This document shows, one piece after another, positions 19,407-29,516 of a stretch of 42,342 bases of DNA. Position numbers and translations under genes: made by a program. The DNA comes from Fidelibacterota bacterium. GTDB lineage: Bacteria > Pseudomonadota > Alphaproteobacteria > Rhodospirillales > Rhodospirillaceae. The stretch is from positions 1-42,342 of the forward strand of contig CAMDOZ010000009.1 in the NCBI GenBank assembly GCA_945903705.1, in the 5' to 3' direction. The notes beneath the pieces are model-generated. The model saw only the letters and a program-made list of their open reading frames with translations. It made no database searches and was not told the origin of the DNA. Every line of letters begins with the position of its first letter. Position 1 is the first letter of the stretch.

Positions 19407-21560
19407 ATGAACACCGCCCTCAATCGCAGACTGTTCCTCACCGCTACCACCGCAGTCGGTGGCGGCTTTGTGCTCGGCTTCTCGCTTCCTGGCAACGAAG
19501 CGGAAGCTGCTGCCGCAGCGCCGGAAGTCAACGCCTGGATCGTGATCCAGCCCGACGACACCATTGTCGTCCGCGTGGCGCACTCGGAAATGGGCCAAGG
19601 CGCCTTCACCTCGCTGCCGATGCTGGTGGCCGAGGAACTGAACGCCGACTGGTCCAAGGTGAAGCCAGAGTTCATCAATCCGACCGAACACGTGCAGCGC
19701 GGAAAGATCTGGGGCGGCACCGCCACCGTCGGCAGCCGCGCCGTGCGCACGTCGCATGAATACCTGCGCAAGGCCGGCGCCAGCGCCCGCGAGATGCTGA
19801 TCGCCGCGGCGGCGCAGCAGTGGAAAGTGCCGGCGAGCGAACTCAAGGCCGAGAAGAGCATCGTCACCCACGCGAAGTCGGGCCGCACGCTCAGCTACGG
19901 CAAACTTGCCGCAGCGGCCTCGCGGATGACGCCGCCCAAGGATGTCGCGCTCAAGCCGCACACCGAATGGACCATTGTCGGCACGTCGAAGAACCGCCTG
20001 GAGATCCCGGACAAGGTGATGGGCAAGCCGGTGTTTGCCATCGACGTGCGCCTGCCGGACATGCTGTACGCCGCCATCGAACATTCGCCGTCCTTCGGTG
20101 GAAAGCTGAAGAGCGTCAACGAAGCGGCGGTGAAGAACATGCCGGGCGTGCGCGCGGTGGTGCCGTTGTTCGACACCGCCGTCGCTGTGGTCGCCGACAG
20201 CTACTTCGAAGCCTCGCAGGCCCTGACGGCGCTGCCGATCGAGTGGGATCGCGGACCCAATGGCAATGTGAACCACGCGGACCTCCGCGCTTTCGTGAAC
20301 AGCGGGTTGACCGCGACCGATGCGGTTGAAGGCGCGAAGGAAGGCGACGTCGCCGATGCCTTCGCCAAGGCCGCGAAGGTCATCGAAGCGGAGTATCACG
20401 CGCCGTATCTCTCCCACGTTCCGATGGAGCCTCAGAACGGCACCGCGCGAGTGACGGCTGATCTGGTGGAAATCTGGGCGCCAACGCAGAACATCGAAGC
20501 GACGCTGAACCTCGCGGCGCGCGCCGCGGGCGTGGATATCGCCAAGGTGAAAGTGCATCCGGTGATGGCCGGCGGCGGCTTCGGCCGGCGCGGCGGTCAA
20601 CTCGAGTATGTGACCGAGTCCGTGACGCTCTCGAAGATGCTTGGGAAGCCGGTGCAGGTGATCTGGTCGCGCGAGGAGGATATCCGCCACGACTTCTACC
20701 GCCCGATCTCGGCGGCGAAGTTCAAAGCGGGCTTCGATGCCCAAGGCAATGCCATCGCCTGGGATACGCGCATCGCGGGCCACTCGATCATGGCCACCGC
20801 CAATCCCGAAGCCCTCAAGAAGGGCCCGGACTTGGGCTTCCTCGTGTGCTTCACCGATAATCCTTACGCCGTGCCCAACCGTCGCGTGGATTTCGGCATG
20901 CGCAACAGTCACGTGCCCGTGGGCTATTGGCGCTCGGTGAACCACTCGCAGAACGGCTACTTCCGTGAGTGTTTCGTCGACGAGATGGCCGAAGCGGCCG
21001 GTGTGGACCCTTACGAATTCCGCCGCAAGCTGTTGGCCAACGCGCCGAAGCAGCTGGCGGTCATGGACGCCGCGGCGAAGGCCGCGGGCTGGGGCCGCAC
21101 TTTGCCTGCCGGAGTTTTCCAGGGCATCGCCCAGGTGGACGGCTACGGCAGCTTCGTCGCGAGCGTGGTCGAAGCCTCGGTGCGTTCGGACGGACATCCG
21201 AAAGTGCACCGCGTGGTGACCGCCATCGACTGCGGCCATGTGGTGAATCCCGACACGGTGAAGGCGCAGACCGAAGGCGCTGTGGCCTGGGCGCTGTCAG
21301 CCGCGTTCTATGGCGAGATCACCATCAAAAACGGCGGCGTGGCGCAAGGTAACTACCACGACTATCCGATGGTGAAGATGGCCGAGATGCCTGTCGTGGA
21401 AACCGTGCTGGTGCCGTCCTACGACTTCTGGGGCGGCGTCGGCGAGCCGGGAGCTCCGCCGGTGACCCCGGCGCTGCTCAACGCCATGTACAAGGCAACG
21501 GGCCGGCGTATTCGGAATCTACCGATCGTGAAGGACTCGCAGCCTCGTTCGGCGGATTAG
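19407..21560 (+). CDS. Molybdopterin-binding large subunit of an IorB-type aldehyde/heterocycle hydroxylase
   Basis: A 717-residue catalytic subunit of the xanthine-oxidase family. The N-terminus has a twin-arginine-type signal (NRRLFLTATTAVGGGF), so it is probably exported folded with its cofactor and its small subunit. Visible landmarks are HSEMGQGAFTSLPMLVAEEL, MAGGGFGRRGG (cofactor site), GYWRSVNHSQNG and GVGEPGAPPVTPAL, where the Glu is the expected catalytic base. The frame is open far upstream, but the ATG at 19407 has a GAGGAG site and gives the Tat signal. Its stop overlaps the hemJ stop by 4 bases. The substrate is unknown; isoquinoline, aldehydes or N-heterocycles are all possible. 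Confidence 0.9.
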   Translation: MNTALNRRLFLTATTAVGGGFVLGFSLPGNEAEAAAAAPEVNAWIVIQPDDTIVVRVAHSEMGQGAFTSLPMLVAEELNADWSKVKPEFINPTEHVQRGKIWGGTATVGSRAVRTSHEYLRKAGASAREMLIAAAAQQWKVPASELKAEKSIVTHAKSGRTLSYGKLAAAASRMTPPKDVALKPHTEWTIVGTSKNRLEIPDKVMGKPVFAIDVRLPDMLYAAIEHSPSFGGKLKSVNEAAVKNMPGVRAVVPLFDTAVAVVADSYFEASQALTALPIEWDRGPNGNVNHADLRAFVNSGLTATDAVEGAKEGDVADAFAKAAKVIEAEYHAPYLSHVPMEPQNGTARVTADLVEIWAPTQNIEATLNLAARAAGVDIAKVKVHPVMAGGGFGRRGGQLEYVTESVTLSKMLGKPVQVIWSREEDIRHDFYRPISAAKFKAGFDAQGNAIAWDTRIAGHSIMATANPEALKKGPDLGFLVCFTDNPYAVPNRRVDFGMRNSHVPVGYWRSVNHSQNGYFRECFVDEMAEAAGVDPYEFRRKLLANAPKQLAVMDAAAKAAGWGRTLPAGVFQGIAQVDGYGSFVASVVEASVRSDGHPKVHRVVTAIDCGHVVNPDTVKAQTEGAVAWALSAAFYGEITIKNGGVAQGNYHDYPMVKMAEMPVVETVLVPSYDFWGGVGEPGAPPVTPALLNAMYKATGRRIRNLPIVKDSQPRSAD

Positions 21561-21991
21561 AACGGCTTCAGCACGACCATGATCACGATGATGATCATGA
21601 AGACGGCCGGAAGCTCGTTGGCGATCCGATAGTATTTGGCTGAGCGGGTATTGGCGTCGTTGGCGAAGTCTTTCGCCCAGCGCTCCATGCGCCCTTGCAT
21701 GAAGCCGATACCCGCGACGAAGGCGAGCTTCACGTAGATCCAGCCCATGGACCAGTCCACCGGGCTTTCCGCCATGAAGAGCATGGTGATCCCGAAGATC
21801 ATCGACCCGGCGGCCGCCGGGCGCATGATGATGCGCAGGAGGCGGCCTTCCATGCCCTTCAGCATCTCCGAGGCCTCGGACCCGGGCGCGAGGCCGACGT
21901 GGTTCACGAACAGGCGCGGGAGATAAAGCAGCCCCGCCATCCACGCGATGACGGAAATGATGTGCAGCGCCTTGATCCAGAAAAAGAGCAT
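21557..21991 (-). CDS. hemJ: Protoporphyrinogen IX oxidase HemJ
   Basis: Integral-membrane enzyme that oxidises protoporphyrinogen IX to protoporphyrin IX. It has 144 residues and four predicted membrane helices. The family His is in the first helix (IKALHIISVIAWMAGLLYL) and the conserved Lys is in WIYVKLAFVAG, the residues held to bind haem b and serve catalysis in HemJ. It lies 217 bases downstream of hemF on the same strand, separated by the palindromic repeat at 22023-22178. It is therefore likely part of the haem cluster, though perhaps not of the same mRNA. Confidence 0.92.
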   Translation of the reverse strand: MLFFWIKALHIISVIAWMAGLLYLPRLFVNHVGLAPGSEASEMLKGMEGRLLRIIMRPAAAGSMIFGITMLFMAESPVDWSMGWIYVKLAFVAGIGFMQGRMERWAKDFANDANTRSAKYYRIANELPAVFMIIIVIMVVLKPF

Positions 21992-22022
21992 TGCCGTGGC
22001 CCCGTCCTTTGTTCGTTTTCAT

Positions 22023-22178
22023 GTCATCACCGGACTTGTTCCGGCGATCCAGGGTTTTCGAACTCCGGACCATGCCGCACCTTTCGCTGGCGCTGCAGGC
22101 ATCGAACCCGGCAACCCTGGATCCCGGATCGCGCCTGCTCTGCTGCTTCGCAGCGTCGCAGGCTTGTCCGGGATGACG
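22023..22178. repeat. Imperfect palindromic intergenic repeat with GTCATC ends
   Basis: The left arm (22023-22054) begins GTCATCACCGGACTTG and ends GATCCAGGG. The right arm (22115-22178) is its reverse complement with an extra inner hairpin (CCTGC...GCTGC-TTC-GCAGC...GCAGG). The arms flank about 60 bases that code for nothing I can see. GTCATCCCGGA...GGATCCAGG repeats are common, non-autonomous intergenic elements in alphaproteobacteria. Once transcribed it would fold into a long hairpin between hemF and hemJ, which could trim or end the message. Confidence 0.7.
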
Positions 22179-22208
22179 TTATGAGTTTATCGGCTCAGAC
22201 CTCGATAG

Positions 22209-23048
22209 CTACGGCCATTTGACTACCGGCGGTAGGCTCATGAGATAGGCGTCGGGGTTGGCGTCGGTGGCGAACCCGAACTTCGTGCCGCGGTCGTAGA
22301 CCAGATTGAACTCCACATAGCGGCCGCGCTTGATGAGCTGCTGCTCGCGGTCGGCTTCGGTGAAAGGCGTGTCTTTACGTCGGGCGACGATCTTCGGATA
22401 GATCTCGAGGAACGCCGCGCCGACATCGCGCAGGAAGGCAAAGTCCTTCTCGATGTCGCCGCTGTCGAGGTCGTCGAAGAAGATCCCGCCGACGCCGCGC
22501 GGCTCCTTGCGGTGCGGCAGATAGAAATACTTGTCGCACCACTCCTTGTATTCGGCGTAGGCGCCGGGGCGGTAGCGCTCGCTCGCGGCTTTCAGGGCGG
22601 CGTGAAAATCCGCGGTGTCGTCGTCGAAGGGAAAGGTCGGCGTGAGATCAGACCCGCCGCCGAACCAAAGTTTGCTGGTGTGCATGAAGCGGAGATTCAT
22701 ATGCACGGTGGGCACGAAGGGGTTGGCCATGTGGGTGACGAGGGAAATCCCACTGGCGGTGAACTGGCCGCCGGACTCCTTCGCCCCTTGCACTTGGCCG
22801 ATGCTCTGGTCGGAGAGCTTGCCCCAGACGTGGCTGACGTTGACGCCGACCTTCTCGAACACAGACCCCCGCATGATGCGCATGCGCCCCCCGCCCTTGA
22901 GGCGATGATCGGGGCCACGTTCCCACTCGGTCTGCTCGAACTTTGCGGACGGCTCAAAGCTCTCGAAGCTCGCGCAGATGCGGTCCTGAAGACCGCGGAA
23001 GAACGAGACGGCGTCGGCGATGAATTCTTCGGAGGCAGGCGCGCTCAT
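22209..23048 (-). CDS. hemF: Oxygen-dependent coproporphyrinogen III oxidase
   Basis: Converts coproporphyrinogen III to protoporphyrinogen IX using O2, in the cytosol. It has 279 residues. Family-specific blocks are MRGSVFEKVGVNVSHVWG, NPFVPTVHMNLRFM, LWFGGGSDLTPTFPFDDD, YFYLPHRKEPRGVGGIFFDD and GRYVEFNLVYDRGTKFG. ATG at 23048 overlaps the hemE stop in an ATGA, which fixes the start despite an open frame upstream. An oxygen-dependent enzyme implies that the operon serves aerobic haem synthesis. No anaerobic HemN is seen here. Confidence 0.96.
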   Translation of the reverse strand: MSAPASEEFIADAVSFFRGLQDRICASFESFEPSAKFEQTEWERGPDHRLKGGGRMRIMRGSVFEKVGVNVSHVWGKLSDQSIGQVQGAKESGGQFTASGISLVTHMANPFVPTVHMNLRFMHTSKLWFGGGSDLTPTFPFDDDTADFHAALKAASERYRPGAYAEYKEWCDKYFYLPHRKEPRGVGGIFFDDLDSGDIEKDFAFLRDVGAAFLEIYPKIVARRKDTPFTEADREQQLIKRGRYVEFNLVYDRGTKFGFATDANPDAYLMSLPPVVKWP

Positions 23049-24076
23049 TTTGCCGTCCGCTCGTGCACGTAGTCGACAAGGCGCGTTATCGCGTCGGGAT
23101 CGACTTCCGGCCAAATGCCGTGGCCGAGATTGAAGATATGGCCGGGCGCCGGACCGGCGTCCGCCAGCACGTCGTCGATGCGTTTTTCGAGTGTGGCCTT
23201 CGGCGCGAACAATACTGCCGGGTCGAGATTGCCCTGGATGGCTTTGCCCGGCAGAAGTTTGCGGGCTCCAGCGAGCGGGACGCGCCAATCAACACCCACC
23301 ACGTCGACCGGCAGCTCAGAGATGATGTCGAGCACCGTTCCACAGTTGTTGGCAAAATAGATGAGCGGAACACCGAGGTCTTTGAGACCGTCAAAGATGC
23401 GCTTCACCGGCGGCAAGGCCACGTGGCGGAAGTCGTAAGGTCCGAGCAGGCCGCCCCAGGATTCGAACAGCATCAGCGCTTGGGCGCCGGCGGCGGCCTG
23501 GGCGCGGAGATAGACGATCATGGCGTCGGCGAGTTTTTCCAGGAGCCGCGCCGAGACCTGCGGCTCCGCATGAAGGAATGAACGCGGCACCGCGAATTCC
23601 TTGGAGGGCTTACCAGCAACCAAGTAGGCGAACAGCGTGAAGGGCGAGCCCGCGAAACCGATCAGCGGCACATGCGCCGGAAGACCGGCGCGGGTCAGGC
23701 GAATGGCTTCCATGACGAAGGGCACGTCACGCTGCGGCTCGAGGCTCCGCATCTCCTCGACCTGCTTCATGGTGCGGATGGGCTCGGCGATCACCGGTCC
23801 CGGGGCATAATCGAGATCGATGCCCATGCCTTCGAGGGGCACCATGATGTCGGAGAAGATAATGGAGGCATCAAAAGCAAAGCGACGGATGGGCTGAAGC
23901 GTGACCTCCGCGGCGAGCTCCGGCGAGCGGGTGAGTTCGGAAAACCCGACCTTGGCCCGCACCTCGCGATATTCCGGCAGGTAGCGTCCAGCCTGGCGCA
24001 TCACCCAGACCGGCGTGTGAGGTGTCGGCTGACGGCGGCATGCGGCGAGGAACGGGGGCAGCTTTTGGTCTGTCAC
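23045..24076 (-). CDS. hemE: Uroporphyrinogen decarboxylase
   Basis: Removes four carboxyl groups from uroporphyrinogen III to give coproporphyrinogen III. It has 343 residues, the normal length. The signature near the N-terminus, PVWVMRQAGRYLPEYREVR, holds the substrate-binding Arg residues, and FSDIMVPLEGMGIDLDY and GFAGSPFTLFAYLV are further family blocks. It starts 14 bases after hemC and its stop overlaps the hemF start by 4 bases. Confidence 0.97.
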   Translation of the reverse strand: MTDQKLPPFLAACRRQPTPHTPVWVMRQAGRYLPEYREVRAKVGFSELTRSPELAAEVTLQPIRRFAFDASIIFSDIMVPLEGMGIDLDYAPGPVIAEPIRTMKQVEEMRSLEPQRDVPFVMEAIRLTRAGLPAHVPLIGFAGSPFTLFAYLVAGKPSKEFAVPRSFLHAEPQVSARLLEKLADAMIVYLRAQAAAGAQALMLFESWGGLLGPYDFRHVALPPVKRIFDGLKDLGVPLIYFANNCGTVLDIISELPVDVVGVDWRVPLAGARKLLPGKAIQGNLDPAVLFAPKATLEKRIDDVLADAGPAPGHIFNLGHGIWPEVDPDAITRLVDYVHERTAK

Positions 24077-24090
24077 GAGGATTGGCTTTC

Positions 24091-25038
24091 TTAAGGGCCG
24101 GAAACGATGGCGCTTTGCCGGCGGGCATGAGCTTGCGCGAGCACGGCGTCGCCGCCTTTGGAGATGAAGTCACTTGCCGCGCTGTCGCCAAGAGCGACAG
24201 GTTCGGTCACGGATCCTGTGCGGCTGACGGAGACGAAGTCGGAGCCATCGAGATTGCAGGCGGCGGCATAGAGCGAGAGCGAGGTTCCGTTCACCGTGGC
24301 GAGCACGCCGAGCGGCACTTGGCAGCCGCCTTCAAGGCGGCCGAGCATGGCGCGTTCGGCGTCAACGGCGGCGCGGGTGGCGCCATGATCGAGCGGCCGC
24401 AGCCAGCGCAAAGTTTCCTGATCGCCCGCCCGCGCACATACCGCAATCGCGCCTTGGGCGGCGGCGTTGGGGAACATGAGCGTATCAAGGCGTTCCGTGA
24501 TGCGATCGGCAAGACCGAGACGCTTCAACCCGGCGGTGGCGAGGATGATGGCGTCGTATTCGCCCTCATCGAGTTTGCGGATACGCGTCGGCACATTGCC
24601 GCGCAGTTCCACCTGCTTCAGGTCCGGGCGCGCCTTGGCCAGGAACGCCTTGCGCCGAAGGCTTGACGTGCCGACGCGCGCGCCGGCGGGCAGGCCGGTA
24701 AAGCCGAGTCCGCCCTTGGAGATGAGGGCATCGCGCGGGTCTTCGCGCTCGAGAACGGCGGCGAGTGTCGTACCAGCGGTCATGGCGGTGGCGAGATCCT
24801 TGAGGCTGTGGACCACCAGGTCCACCTCTTTATCCAAGAGCGCGCGATCGAGCTCGGCGGTGAAAAACCCTTTGCCTTCGGTCGACCACAGCGGCACGTC
24901 GGTCTGCAGATCGCCGCGGGTCTTGATGATCACAAGCTCGACAGTCGGCGCGCCCGGAAGAAGGCCGATGAGGCGCTTCACCTCTTCCGATTGCCAGAGG
25001 GCGAGCGCGGAACCGCGGGTGCCGATACGCAAGCTCAC
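24091..25038 (-). CDS. hemC: Hydroxymethylbilane synthase (porphobilinogen deaminase)
   Basis: Joins four porphobilinogens into hydroxymethylbilane. It has 315 residues. The dipyrromethane cofactor Cys is Cys239 in LEGGCQVPLG. Other blocks are RIGTRGSALALWQ, VHSLKDLATAMT and LRGNVPTRIRKLDEGEYDAI. In most bacteria hemC is followed by hemD; here hemD is missing from the window and hemE follows. Its ATG overlaps the stop of the response-regulator gene by 4 bases, so it is translationally coupled to a regulator, which is an unusual arrangement. Confidence 0.97.
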   Translation of the reverse strand: MSLRIGTRGSALALWQSEEVKRLIGLLPGAPTVELVIIKTRGDLQTDVPLWSTEGKGFFTAELDRALLDKEVDLVVHSLKDLATAMTAGTTLAAVLEREDPRDALISKGGLGFTGLPAGARVGTSSLRRKAFLAKARPDLKQVELRGNVPTRIRKLDEGEYDAIILATAGLKRLGLADRITERLDTLMFPNAAAQGAIAVCARAGDQETLRWLRPLDHGATRAAVDAERAMLGRLEGGCQVPLGVLATVNGTSLSLYAAACNLDGSDFVSVSRTGSVTEPVALGDSAASDFISKGGDAVLAQAHARRQSAIVSGP

Positions 25039-25760
25039 GCCCGCTCTCCGTCGGGCAGGAAGCGATAGCCGACGCCGCGCACAGTCAAGAAGTGCTTGGG
25101 CTCATGCGGGGCGCGTTCGAAAATCTTGCGCAGGCGCAGGATGAAATTGTCGACCGTGCGGGTCGAGGGAAACACCTCATAGCCCCACACCTTCTCAAGA
25201 AGGTCGTCCCGCGCGACTACGTCGCCCGGCTGTTCGGACAGAACTTTCAGGATCATCGCTTCCTTTTCGGTGAGGTCGTGGAACGAGCCATCCCACGACT
25301 TGGCGCGGAAGGTCCGGAAGTTCACTTCATTGCCCGCGAAGCGGAGCACGCCATCGGAGGCGGGCTTGGCCGTCGACTGTTTGTACCAATCCCAGCGGCG
25401 CAAGATCGCTTTCACCCGGAGCAGAAACTCGTCGAGATGGAAAGGCTTGGTCAGATAGTCGTCACCGCCGGCTTCGAGGCCGCGCACGCGATCCTGCGGG
25501 TCGCCGCGGGCGGTGAGGAAGAGGACGGGTGTGTTCTTTCCCGCCTGGCGCAGCTCGCGGCACAGGGCGAAGCCGTCCATATGCGGGAGCATGACGTCGA
25601 GGATCAGGAGGTCGTAATCGGCGCCGAGCGCCTGGGAAAGGCCCGCGCGGCCGTCATAAGCCGTGTCGGCCGCATAACCTTCCGCGCGCATGTTCTCGGC
25701 CATACCCTCGGCCAGATGAAGGTCGTCTTCGACAACAAGGATGCGATGCGCTTCGCTCAT
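25035..25760 (-). CDS. OmpR/PhoB-family response regulator inside the hem operon
   Basis: A 241-residue DNA-binding response regulator. The receiver domain has the acidic pocket (ED at 11-12), phospho-acceptor Asp55 in LLILDVMLPHMDG and Lys105 in YLTKPF. The C-terminal winged helix (about 140-238) contains LTEKEAMILKVLSEQPGDVV, STRTVDNFILRLRKIFE and HFLTVRGVGYRFLPDGE. It overlaps the kinase stop and the hemC start by 4 bases each, so it can hardly be expressed apart from haem enzymes. PhoB-type proteins bind tandem half-sites 11 bases apart, and such a site lies upstream of hemA at 29495-29516. A role in controlling haem synthesis is an inference from context only. Confidence 0.95.
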   Translation of the reverse strand: MSEAHRILVVEDDLHLAEGMAENMRAEGYAADTAYDGRAGLSQALGADYDLLILDVMLPHMDGFALCRELRQAGKNTPVLFLTARGDPQDRVRGLEAGGDDYLTKPFHLDEFLLRVKAILRRWDWYKQSTAKPASDGVLRFAGNEVNFRTFRAKSWDGSFHDLTEKEAMILKVLSEQPGDVVARDDLLEKVWGYEVFPSTRTVDNFILRLRKIFERAPHEPKHFLTVRGVGYRFLPDGERA

Positions 25761-26860
25761 ACCACATCCTGGGTGACGGCGGCGGGCCAGGTCACGGTGA
25801 AGGTGGCGCCCTTCCCCGGCCCATCGCTATGAGCCTTCGCTTCGCCGTTCTCGAAATGCATGAAGCGCCGCACGATATAGAGGCCGAGGCCGGTCCCCGC
25901 AGCGTCGCGGCCGCCGGTGATATCCAGGCGCACGAACTTCTCGAACAAGCGCTCGGCCTCCGCAGGCTCGAAACCGATGCCGGTGTCGCGGACCGAGAGT
26001 TCGACGGCGGCGCCGGTGCGACGGCCGCTGATGGTGATCTCGCCGCCCTTCAAGGGCGCGATGGCGGCGATGGCGTTATCGATGAGATTGCGCACGACCC
26101 CGTCGGTGGCGACGGCATCGGCGAAGACGTCGAGGTCGGCGGGAATGTCGACGGTGAACGCGACGTTCTCGCGCTTGGCCACTTCTTCCACATTCGCGAG
26201 CACATGGCGCACGGCCTCGGCGACGCCGATGCGCTCACGGTTGAGCTGCACACGGCCGCGATCCAGGCGCGCGCTATCGAGGATCTTGGCGACCATGTTT
26301 TCCATGCGCCGCAAGTCGTCGAGCATGCGCTGCGAAAGCTGCTGGAAGCGCTCGGGCGAGAACTGGCGGCGGAGCATGGTTTCCAATGACAACTGAAGGC
26401 TCGCGAGCGGCGTCTTGAATTGGTGCGAGACCATGGCGAGGAAATTGTCCTGCTTGCGGCGCACTTCCGCCTCGCCGGAAAGGCCGCGCCACAGGACGGC
26501 GATGCCGGCCGCGAGGACTAGGAGGAAGAACCCGCCTTCAGCCGTGTACTGGTTCACCCGGCTCCGGCGCGATTCGTCGAGCTCGGCGAGTGCTTCAGGC
26601 TTCACCATGACCTCCTCGCCAACCACGTGGAGATGCGGAAAGATCGAGGCGATTTCGGAGGCCGCGATGCCCGCCGATTCGAGGCGCTGCCCGGCAGCGA
26701 CGTCGTAGGTATAAAGCGTGCGCACCTGGAGCGTGCGCTCATCGACGTACATGCGCTGATCAACGATCCACCAGACCACCTGCGCGACCGCAAACACCTG
26801 CAGCGCGATCATCACAATATGCAGGAAGCGGATGGGATCGGAACGGAGGGTGGTGGCCAT
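25757..26860 (-). CDS. Membrane sensor histidine kinase inside the hem operon
   Basis: A 367-residue kinase. TM1 spans about residues 11-33 and TM2 about 109-125. Between them is a periplasmic domain of some 75 residues with no domain I recognise. The HisKA H-box is DNFLAMVSHQFKTPLASLQL with His146. The ATPase part shows an N-box (VVRNLIDNAIAAIA), G1 (VRDTGIGFEP) and G2 (GTGLGLYIVRRF). No PAS or HAMP domain is evident. The ATG at 26860 is preferred to a TTG at 26890. It lies 23 bases after hemL and overlaps the regulator by 4. The small periplasmic domain or the membrane helices must sense the signal; haem, a precursor, oxygen or envelope redox state are guesses. Confidence 0.93.
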   Translation of the reverse strand: MATTLRSDPIRFLHIVMIALQVFAVAQVVWWIVDQRMYVDERTLQVRTLYTYDVAAGQRLESAGIAASEIASIFPHLHVVGEEVMVKPEALAELDESRRSRVNQYTAEGGFFLLVLAAGIAVLWRGLSGEAEVRRKQDNFLAMVSHQFKTPLASLQLSLETMLRRQFSPERFQQLSQRMLDDLRRMENMVAKILDSARLDRGRVQLNRERIGVAEAVRHVLANVEEVAKRENVAFTVDIPADLDVFADAVATDGVVRNLIDNAIAAIAPLKGGEITISGRRTGAAVELSVRDTGIGFEPAEAERLFEKFVRLDITGGRDAAGTGLGLYIVRRFMHFENGEAKAHSDGPGKGATFTVTWPAAVTQDVV

Positions 26861-26883
26861 GGCGGATCGTCCGGTTGTGTCGC

Positions 26884-28173
26884 CTACCAAGGAAGGGCCG
26901 CGACCGCTTCGGCGAGCGCTGCGACGAAGGTGTCGATATCCGCTTCCGTATGGGCGGCGGACAGAAAGCCGACCTCGTAGGCCGAGGGTGCAATGTAGAT
27001 ACCCTTCTCCAGAAGCGCTTGAAAGAGCGGTGCAAAGCGGGCGCCCGCGGCGCCGTCGATGGCCTCGGCCGACCGGGGCGGCGCACCCTCCTGGAAGGCC
27101 AGCCAGAAGATGGAGCCGATCCGGGCAAAACCAACCGGTCGCCCGGTGGCTTTCAGGGCCGCAGTCGCCTTTGCTTCCAGGACCGCGCCCAGATCATCGA
27201 GCTTGGCGATGACATTGTCGCGCTCGAGGATGCGCAAGGTGGCAAGGCCCGCGGCCATGGCCACGGGATTTCCGGAGAGGGTTCCGGCCTGATAGACCGG
27301 GCCTTCCGGCGCGATATGGGACATGAGCTGGCGCGACCCGCCGTAGGCGCCCACCGGCAATCCGCCGCCGATCACCTTTCCAAACGTAACCAGGTCCGGT
27401 GTGATGCCGTAATAAGCCGCGGCGCTGCCCTTAGGGACACGGAAGCCGGAGATGACTTCGTCGAAAATGAGCAGCGCGCCGTGTTGTTTGGTCACGGCGC
27501 GGAGCTTGTGTAGGAATTCCGGCCGCTGAAGCAGGAGTCCGTTGTTGGCGGGCACCGGCTCGATGATGACGGCGGCGATCTTCACGCCCTCGGCGGCGAA
27601 CAGAGCGTCGAGCTTGGCGTCATCGTCGAGCGGCAGCACGCGCGTGAGCGCTGCGAAATCCTTAGGAACGCCGGCCGAAGACGGCTGGCCGGCAGTGACG
27701 AGGCCGGAGCCTGCCGCCACCAGCAAGTGATCCGCGTGGCCATGGTAACAACCGGAGAACTTCACGATGAGATCACGCCCCGTCGCACCGCGCGCGAGGC
27801 GGATGGCGCTCATGGTCGCTTCGGTGCCGGAGGAGACAAAGCGCACCTGTTCGAGCCCCGGGTAGGATGCGACGACGCGCTCGGCCAGGTCCACTTCGCC
27901 GCGGCAGGGCGCCCCGTAGGTGGTGCCGAGCGCTGCAGCCTTCTGAACGACTGTTACGACTTCAAGCGGCGCGTGACCGAGAATGAGCGGTCCCCACGAG
28001 CCGACAAAATCGAGGTAACGCTTGCCCTCCTCGTCGGTGACGTAAGCGCCTTCGCCTTTCGCGATAAACCGCGGCGTGCCGCCAACGGAGCGAAAGGCGC
28101 GCACAGGCGAATTGACGCCGCCCGGAATGAAGCGGCGCGCGCGCTCGAAGAGAGCGATGTTGGTCTCGGTCAC
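26884..28173 (-). CDS. hemL: Glutamate-1-semialdehyde 2,1-aminomutase
   Basis: PLP enzyme that makes 5-aminolevulinate from glutamate-1-semialdehyde, the second step of the C5 route. It has 429 residues. Landmarks are RFIPGGVNSPVRAFRSVGG, SSGTEATMSAIRLARG, LLIFDEVISGFR and the PLP Lys266 in TFGKVIGGGLPVGAYGG. It follows hemA with a 4-base overlap, so the unstable semialdehyde can be passed between enzymes made together. The next gene downstream is the sensor kinase. Confidence 0.97.
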   Translation of the reverse strand: MTETNIALFERARRFIPGGVNSPVRAFRSVGGTPRFIAKGEGAYVTDEEGKRYLDFVGSWGPLILGHAPLEVVTVVQKAAALGTTYGAPCRGEVDLAERVVASYPGLEQVRFVSSGTEATMSAIRLARGATGRDLIVKFSGCYHGHADHLLVAAGSGLVTAGQPSSAGVPKDFAALTRVLPLDDDAKLDALFAAEGVKIAAVIIEPVPANNGLLLQRPEFLHKLRAVTKQHGALLIFDEVISGFRVPKGSAAAYYGITPDLVTFGKVIGGGLPVGAYGGSRQLMSHIAPEGPVYQAGTLSGNPVAMAAGLATLRILERDNVIAKLDDLGAVLEAKATAALKATGRPVGFARIGSIFWLAFQEGAPPRSAEAIDGAAGARFAPLFQALLEKGIYIAPSAYEVGFLSAAHTEADIDTFVAALAEAVAALPW

Positions 28174-29462
28174 TGTATCTTCTCCTTATTGATAGGATGG
28201 CGCGCGCTCTCGCCGTGGAGCGCATCCTGCATGCCGCGCAAATAAGCTTGCACCGCGGCGGGCCCCGATTCCGTGGCCAGCGCCCTGAGGCCCTTGAGCG
28301 GCGCGTGCGCGAGGCGGCGCGCGAAAGCTTCGGCCCACCGGCGCAAGCCTTCTTCGTCGGTGTCGGACTTCGGCAGGCGGCGCAGACTTTCGACGGCCGC
28401 GCGCTGATACTGCATGGTGAGGTCCTGGATCAAGGCCGAGGCCTCACGGATCGCGTATTCGCCGCGCAGACGGTCGAGATGATCGTCGATGACGAGGCGC
28501 GCGGAGGCGAGTTCCTTCAGGCGTTCGGTGCGGCCGAGCGCCGCATCGGCGATCACCGCATCTATGCCGAGACGCGTAAGGCCCGCAATCATTCCGGCCG
28601 CGGGATCGACATTGGGCGGAACGCCCAGGTCGATGATCAAGGCGCCGCGCGCCGGAGCCGCGGCGGCGATGCGCGCGGCGACCGTCAGGTCGATCACGGG
28701 CTCGGCTCCGCCGACAGCGGTGATGACGACGTCGATCGCGCCGGGATCCGAAAGGAATGCATCGAGCGGCCGGGCATCGCCGCCTAACTCCGCCGCGAGC
28801 TCCTGCGCCGTCTCAAAGGTACGGTTCACGACGGTGACGGGCAGGCCTTGCGCGGCAAGCGCGCGGCCGGCCTGGCGCGTCATGGGCGAGATGCCGACAA
28901 GCGTCACGCGACCTCGCGCGCCGTCCACATGGGCAAGCGCGCGCTTCACCGCATAGTCGGCGAGGGATTCCACGTCGGCCGCACCGGCGATTTCCTTGTG
29001 CACGTCCTGAGCGGCACGCAGCGCCTCGGCGAAAAGATAGTCGAGTTGCGGGCCGCAGGTCCCCGCCGCCTTCGCAGCACTCCACGCATGGCGCACCTGG
29101 TTGTAGATCTCGCGCTCGCCGGCCTGGGCGGAATCGAGACCGGCCGTCACCAGGAAAAGATGCTCCGCCGCGCCCTCGCCCACCCAGGCGCGGAAGACCT
29201 GGCGCACATCGTCGCCGTTCAGGATATCGGCGAAGACTTCGCCAAGGGCGTCGCGACACTCCTGCACGGCGAGGTCGTCATCGCCGGCGAGCACAAACTC
29301 GATCCGGTTGCAGGTGCCGATATAGGCGAGTTCGGGGACACCGAGGCGGGCGGCAAGGCCGCGCAGCCGGTCCTCAATCTCGGTTTTCGGCCACGCGAGC
29401 TGCCCGAGCCGCTCGACTCCGGCCGACTTATAGGAGGCGCCGATGAGCGCGAATTGATCCAT
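28170..29462 (-). CDS. hemA: Glutamyl-tRNA reductase (C5-pathway HemA)
   Basis: Reduces glutamyl-tRNA(Glu) to glutamate-1-semialdehyde with NADPH, the committed step of haem synthesis by the C5 route. It has 430 residues. The catalytic Cys51 lies in YIGTCNRIEFVL. The segment LDSAQAGEREIYNQVRHAWS corresponds to the family's LDS..GE.QI..Q block. The NADPH-binding domain follows (GRVTLVGISPMTRQAGRALA), then a C-terminal dimerisation helix region. It is unrelated to the ALA synthase that is also called hemA in most alphaproteobacteria. It is the first gene of the operon and has its own upstream region of about 80 bases with a candidate operator. Confidence 0.95.
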   Translation of the reverse strand: MDQFALIGASYKSAGVERLGQLAWPKTEIEDRLRGLAARLGVPELAYIGTCNRIEFVLAGDDDLAVQECRDALGEVFADILNGDDVRQVFRAWVGEGAAEHLFLVTAGLDSAQAGEREIYNQVRHAWSAAKAAGTCGPQLDYLFAEALRAAQDVHKEIAGAADVESLADYAVKRALAHVDGARGRVTLVGISPMTRQAGRALAAQGLPVTVVNRTFETAQELAAELGGDARPLDAFLSDPGAIDVVITAVGGAEPVIDLTVAARIAAAAPARGALIIDLGVPPNVDPAAGMIAGLTRLGIDAVIADAALGRTERLKELASARLVIDDHLDRLRGEYAIREASALIQDLTMQYQRAAVESLRRLPKSDTDEEGLRRWAEAFARRLAHAPLKGLRALATESGPAAVQAYLRGMQDALHGESARHPINKEKIQ

Positions 29463-29494
29463 GGGGGCCAGATAGCATGACCCGATGGCGGCAA

Positions 29495-29516
29495 TGTCAC
29501 GGCTGTGTCACAGCCG
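29495..29516 (-). promoter_or_regulatory. Tandem 11-bp repeat upstream of hemA, candidate response-regulator site
   Basis: Two 11-base units lie end to end: TGTCACGGCTG (29495-29505) and TGTCACAGCCG (29506-29516), 9 of 11 positions identical. The 11-base period and TGTCA core are like the Pho box (CTGTCAT repeats, 11-base period) bound by PhoB-type proteins. The same bases also contain a perfect 17-base palindrome, CGGCTGTG-T-CACAGCCG (29500-29516). The site is 33-54 bases upstream of the hemA ATG. On the hemA strand a GTGACA inside it could act as a -35, with a weak TGCTAT -10 seventeen bases on. There is no T-run, so it is not a terminator. Confidence 0.5.

Follow-up and report, generated by a model that had tools for sequence, protein, structure and literature searches.

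The window analysed here, positions 1 to 42,342 of contig CAMDOZ010000009.1 (42,342 nucleotides, nt) of an uncultured alphaproteobacterium placed in the Rhodospirillaceae, carries a two-component pair, a membrane histidine kinase and a response regulator, among genes of haem synthesis. Eight genes, hemA-hemL-kinase-regulator-hemC-hemE-hemF-hemJ, follow one another on the minus strand from 29462 down to 21557, and a direct repeat, which we call the hem-box, lies before hemA. The features of this locus are as follows:

29495..29510, minus strand: hem-box, TGACACAGCCGTGACA, a pair of TGACA half-sites with 11-bp spacing, the 5' end of the box being 48 nt ahead of the hemA ATG
29472..29477, minus strand: -10-like TGCTAT, located by eye, 17 nt after the second GTGACA and 9 nt before the hemA ATG
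28170..29462, minus strand: hemA, glutamyl-tRNA reductase (C5 pathway), from family searches
26884..28173, minus strand: hemL, glutamate-1-semialdehyde aminomutase, GTG start
25757..26860, minus strand: HemK-type membrane histidine kinase, 367 amino acids, HisKA at residues 137-202 and HATPase_c at 254-360
25035..25760, minus strand: HemR-type OmpR-family response regulator, 241 amino acids, from Pfam domains and comparison with HemR
24091..25038, minus strand: hemC, hydroxymethylbilane synthase, GTG start
23045..24076, minus strand: hemE, uroporphyrinogen decarboxylase
22209..23048, minus strand: hemF, oxygen-dependent coproporphyrinogen oxidase
21557..21991, minus strand: hemJ, protoporphyrinogen oxidase, above the cut-off of TIGR00701, the gene that closes the row in relatives

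The products of hemL, hemC, hemE, hemF and hemJ each exceeded the cut-off of at least one NCBIfam model of their own. For hemA, the score against TIGR01035 was 187.8 bits, below the cut-off of 209.55, and the Pfam domains GlutR_N, Shikimate_DH and GlutR_dimer were all above theirs. Because the gene preceding hemA is closed by a terminator-like hairpin (29568-29541), hemA is the first gene of the row. Four junctions overlap by 4 bases, as GTGA at hemA/hemL and regulator/hemC and as ATGA at kinase/regulator and hemE/hemF, while the gap between hemL and the kinase measures 23 bases, provided that the ATG at 26860 is the start of the kinase. A sequence-only reading made earlier on this DNA had described the hem genes and the pair as co-oriented in this order, and the family searches and the common minus strand bear this out; it had taken all four overlaps for ATGA, which is right for two of them, and it had ended the gene list at hemF, overlooking hemJ. 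The hemB (C92) and hemH (C55) genes of the window genome are located away from the operon. The hemF-hemJ gap (22005-22205) contains about 150 nt of strongly palindromic sequence (fold -95.8 kcal/mol, z -6.1) resembling a dispersed repeat element, and the distance between the two genes is smaller in most fetched relatives than in the window.

The kinase was detected in 22 of the 73 genomes of the family, namely in 18/19 genomes of the genus, in all four genomes of two sister genera (g3, 3/3; g9, 1/1) and in 0/50 of the others. The sole genome of the genus without it, G005, is 71% complete, and its contig starts about 2 kb from hemA, at the flank expected to carry the kinase, so that absence of the kinase is not demonstrated there. 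The full row from hemA to hemJ was present in the same order in 14 of 20 fetched relative loci, and the other six, cut by contig ends, agree over the part that they cover. A wide scan of named genomes against the kinase alignment then yielded 104 relatives; we retained the 80 best, in 78 loci. By title, these loci comprise 29 Gammaproteobacteria/Steroidobacteraceae, 28 plain Proteobacteria and one Planctomycetota, and most of the remaining records belong to the window's own group, although they carry a mixture of names. The pair lying away from hem genes in relatives, which the sequence-only reading had named as evidence against itself, is not what we observed, since hem neighbours stand beside the kinase in 77/78 retained loci. 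Where the loci leave room, hemL is directly upstream of the kinase in 73/74, the regulator directly downstream in 69/70 and hemC after the regulator in 67/68. The exceptions are L135, which has lost hemA-hemL, L196, where neighbours were not found, and L194, in which the regulator that was counted is unrelated and the contig ends inside the kinase. A chance operon was rejected, the order of the row being kept both in the fetched relatives and in the wide scan. In two gamma-type loci inspected by eye, hemC and hemE are separated by hemD and hemB. In a phylum-wide sample, run at an E-value of 1e-60 with five candidates scored per genome, so that distant forms could escape, the kinase was found in 1/398 genomes, the window's own, and is thus uncommon at that strictness. 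Ten scan records (in L122-L134) are titled Candidatus Marinimicrobia, yet their hem loci are those of the window's alphaproteobacterial genus, and the titles look wrong.

Two copies of TGACA, 11 bp apart, lie upstream of hemA in all 19 loci formed by the window and 18 relatives, and the exact TGACA-N6-TGACA occurs once before hemA in 19/19 genomes of the genus. The set was widened to the hemA upstream regions of the window and 60 loci (18/78 were omitted, 11 with hemA out of reach and seven with hemA or its upstream region cut). TGAC-N7-TGACA was found within 100 bp of hemA in 58/61, against a shuffle expectation of 0.03 of 61, and 57 of these sites lie 47-51 nt before the estimated start; an exact or one-mismatch box precedes hemA in 61/61 alpha- and gamma-type loci (60/60 loci, plus the window, where it is exact). 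With numerous close relatives in the set, the 61 do not amount to as many independent tests; independence holds between the alpha and gamma types. Among 30 hemA genes of the same order whose genomes lack the pair, none has the box. In alpha types the downstream half of the box lies 17 nt ahead of a -10-like TGNTAT, which is kept at that place in most alpha-type hemA upstream regions, so that the box covers the -35 place; a consensus scan of the hemA upstream region returned no sigma-70-type promoter. Judged by eye from the -10-like element 9 nt before the start codon, the hemA mRNA may be leaderless.

A box at hemB was rejected, as it stands in front of hemB in 0/19 hemB loci, with chance half-matches inside L203 and L212. 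The two other exact boxes of the window genome (C18, C22) fall inside open reading frames, and none was seen at a promoter. In 15 of 18 hemH loci of the genus (L217-L234), the ferrochelatase gene adjoins the hem-box and diverges from hemA, which is not so in the window genome or in the two relatives nearest to it; in those 15 loci, the box may serve both genes. In two close relatives (G009 and G017; L241:1963 and L242:2349), an exact box-like sequence, TGACAGCTGCGTGACA, lies 62 nt before a fabD-like frame, and G015 carries three identical box-like sites, TGACATCGGTGTGACA, spaced by 186-191 bases (L243:3219-3611).

One relative separates the box from hemA. G066, a member of g3 given as 100% complete, has an ALA (5-aminolaevulinic acid) synthase and no GlutR_N. 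Its locus (L257:7533, L135:7791) lacks hemA-hemL and keeps an exact hem-box followed by kinase-regulator-hemC-hemE, with a ferrochelatase-like gene pointing away. Since the exact box stays before the pair after the loss of hemA-hemL, it goes with the pair and not with hemA. The ALA synthase gene of G066 stands beside a second hemC-like frame; a box at that gene was rejected, none being found in the 8 kb examined.

Across the genus, GlutR_N was found in 19/19 genomes, and 18/19 have no ALA synthase above the model cut-off. The only such hit (G018, C267:308-1510, 676 bits) could be a contaminant, the genome being fragmented and the contig short. Among 99 relatives searched, 76 have GlutR_N and 68 an ALA synthase above cut-off. 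The window hemA shares 24-33% identity with 30 hemA of the same order and about 38-44% with the complete hemA of gamma-type loci, and in a hemA tree the pair-carrying loci and the same-order genomes without the pair fall apart with a support of 98. This quick tree has very long branches and was used for grouping only. The closer identity to gamma types and the separation in the tree suggest that the operon was exchanged between lineages, the direction of transfer not being given by an unrooted tree.

In the pair itself, Pfam HisKA and HATPase_c (kinase) and Response_reg and Trans_reg_C (regulator) scored above cut-off, and transmembrane parts were judged by eye. The kinase residue H146 and, four residues on, T150 are invariant across 51 aligned kinases, and the recognition-helix segment of the regulator, PSTRTVDNFILRLR, is similar in alpha and gamma types. 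That the kinase belongs to a named envelope-stress or redox family was rejected: among the 25 NCBIfam models listed per protein, no PhoR/PnpS, OmpR or other named two-component equivalog reached its cut-off, the best scores being 149.9 against 400 needed for the kinase (PnpS) and 177.3 against 331 for the regulator (OmpR). AlgZ/AlgR are a kinase and a regulator of the LytS/LytTR type; the regulator of the window, with its Trans_reg_C domain, is of the OmpR type and not of the LytTR type. The best-kept sensor residues of the 51 kinases (Q27, W30, W31, D34 and Q35; Q104, Y105, W107, E108, F111 and F112) lie mainly at membrane ends, with few in the loop (e.g. Y50, A56, G64, P75), and by eye Leptospira HemK has WW and EGTFFL at corresponding places. 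As a lead rather than a result, these residues fit sensing in or at the membrane.

A pair of this kind, HemKR (Hklep/Rrlep), has been studied in Leptospira. The HemR box is TGACA[N6]TGACA, phosphorylated HemR of L. biflexa is an activator of hemA and a repressor of hmuO, and ALA switches HemKR off through the phosphatase activity of HemK, the signal being ALA or a product of ALA (PMC11426443). L. biflexa kinase or regulator mutants are haem or ALA auxotrophs with hemAEL down 2 to 10 fold, the periplasmic loop of HemK is replaceable and its membrane part indispensable, and in L. interrogans the pair is linked to hem genes, such linkage also being mentioned, without data, for Bdellovibrio (PMC2266917). 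In the double mutant of L. biflexa described in 2024, the hemA operon was not significantly affected (PMC11426443). In one-way searches of the window genome, HemR matched the hem-operon regulator first of 39 matches and HemK matched the hem-operon kinase first of 12 (59.6 vs 41.2 bits); as both match the hem-operon pair best, we filed it as HemKR, a putative orthologue of the Leptospira pair.

Both systems combine a HisKA kinase with an OmpR-type regulator, both kinases have a threonine four residues past the phospho-histidine (HemK residue from PMC11426443), and in both TGACA-N6-TGACA lies about 50 nt before hemA. In L. interrogans the kinase also directly follows hemL within a hem row, hemCD-hemB-hemL-kinase-regulator-hemE-hemN, and an exact box is found 53 nt upstream of where the preceding gene starts, a gene annotated as a hypothetical protein and taken by us as hemA from Figure 1 of PMC2266917. 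By contrast, the two belong to different phyla, the window kinase has 367 amino acids and a periplasmic stretch of about 73 residues, compared with 305 and about 35 (by eye) in L. interrogans, hemC, hemD, hemB and hemN are arranged otherwise, and hemF and hemJ are in the window row. In L. biflexa, unlike in the window, the pair is apart from hem genes, and the further HemR targets hmuO and exbB1/exbD1 were not seen in the window genome, in which hmuO was not searched for. Other two-component systems touch haem genes as well. The AlgZ/AlgR genes of Pseudomonas aeruginosa are cotranscribed with hemC and hemD, but have a broad regulon and no claim of a hem-box (PMC5790918). HrrSA and ChrSA of Corynebacterium are reported to control the hemA promoter, as the pair would here, but are haem-responsive and act on haem use and export. 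Thus the implication of the sequence-only reading that a two-component pair in a hem operon lacks precedent does not hold, since Leptospira HemKR (PMC2266917, PMC11426443) and Pseudomonas algZR-hemCD (PMC5790918) precede it. No description of HemKR in Alpha- or Gammaproteobacteria was found in the open-access literature searched, and the switch is of an established kind, present in more groups of bacteria than the papers examined describe.

We propose, with a probability of roughly 0.87, that kinase and regulator form a two-component system of the HemKR type, devoted to haem synthesis and acting through the hem-box on the operon; that it would control haem synthesis is strongly supported by the sequence comparisons. 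The membrane kinase would phosphorylate the OmpR-type regulator, which would then bind the hem-box as a tandem dimer with its downstream half at the -35 place, and turn on hemA-hemL-kinase-regulator-hemC-hemE-hemF, probably as a single transcript. Its own genes would be included, making an autoregulatory loop, because kinase and regulator lie within the operon headed by the box. Build-up of a porphyrin precursor, in Leptospira ALA or a derivative, would convert the kinase into a phosphatase, and the operon would fall back. Activation is carried over by analogy from Leptospira, for which the published results also point both ways. The sequence-only reading had likewise suggested that the pair governs the hem pathway, which operon membership, the kept place after hemL (73/74) and the box before hemA support; the envelope or redox signal it had added is not supported, the published HemK signal being ALA or its product (PMC11426443) and the best-kept residues lying at the membrane and not in the periplasmic loop.

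Several observations weigh against this assignment. Identity is modest, 35% over 229 residues between the window regulator and HemR and 29% over 263 residues between the window kinase and HemK, the margin of HemR over the next regulator of the window genome is small (131 vs 121.9 bits), and when sensor profiles were compared, the match to HemK was weak (hhalign probability 13.5, E 0.0021). The 4,051-base contig L196, titled Planctomycetota, has a kinase-like stretch without a hem or regulator neighbour, and the three loci missed by the TGAC-N7-TGACA search (L171, L178, L179) have TGAT in place of TGAC. Finally, exact boxes occur at 36 further places in the 19 genus genomes, compared with 14 for the reversed control pattern, so the regulator may have other targets.

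The alternative that survives best, although we consider it unlikely, is that the phosphorylated regulator represses the operon and that a signal such as haem excess switches the kinase on. L. biflexa HemR does act both ways, on hemA and on hmuO (PMC11426443), and a dimer across the -35 region can block polymerase as well as recruit it. The fall of hemAEL and the auxotrophy after kinase or regulator loss in L. biflexa (PMC2266917) speak for activation, a point left unsettled by the double mutant (PMC11426443). We hold it improbable that the pair merely rides in the hem operon and regulates something else, the box being its autoregulatory site. AlgZR, cotranscribed with hemCD and endowed with a broad regulon (PMC5790918), offers a model for this, and the surplus of exact boxes in the genus fits it. 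However, in Leptospira growth in the absence of haem or ALA depends on the counterpart of this pair (PMC2266917), the two further exact boxes of the window genome fall within open reading frames, and the box heads the whole operon, so that autoregulation equals hem regulation. It is very improbable that the repeat serves some other haem-gene regulator or that GTGACA is a plain -35 element to which the linked pair does not bind, for although GTGACA matches TTGACA at 5/6 positions with the spacing to TGNTAT given above, a second copy 11 bp upstream is superfluous for a -35 element, 11-bp direct repeats fit OmpR-family regulators, the site matches the published HemR box, the repeat is missing from all 30 same-order hemA genes without the pair, and G066 retained it with the pair.

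Beyond the HemKR assignment of this one operon, we tentatively suggest, at somewhat less than even odds, that HemKR is an old mobile haem-control cassette that crossed phyla with the C5 operon and its operator. Its kinase would sense a metabolite of the porphyrin path in the membrane, through a conserved WW that closes the first membrane helix and an E-G/S-x-FF that opens the second, and not through the periplasmic domain; in the window lineage, the cassette would have arrived with a foreign hemA and replaced ALA synthase. New here are the spread in Pseudomonadota, the conserved membrane residues and a relative that lacks hemA-hemL but keeps box and pair, G066, in which HemKR-type control can dispense with ALA-making genes in cis. 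The gene junction and operator shared by many Pseudomonadota turn a single-genus system into a comparative one, in which the HemR regulon becomes predictable from the box. When distant kinases are aligned, residues at the membrane stand out as the candidate sensing part, and the question of the HemK signal becomes testable through the few residues kept across types and through kinase exchange.

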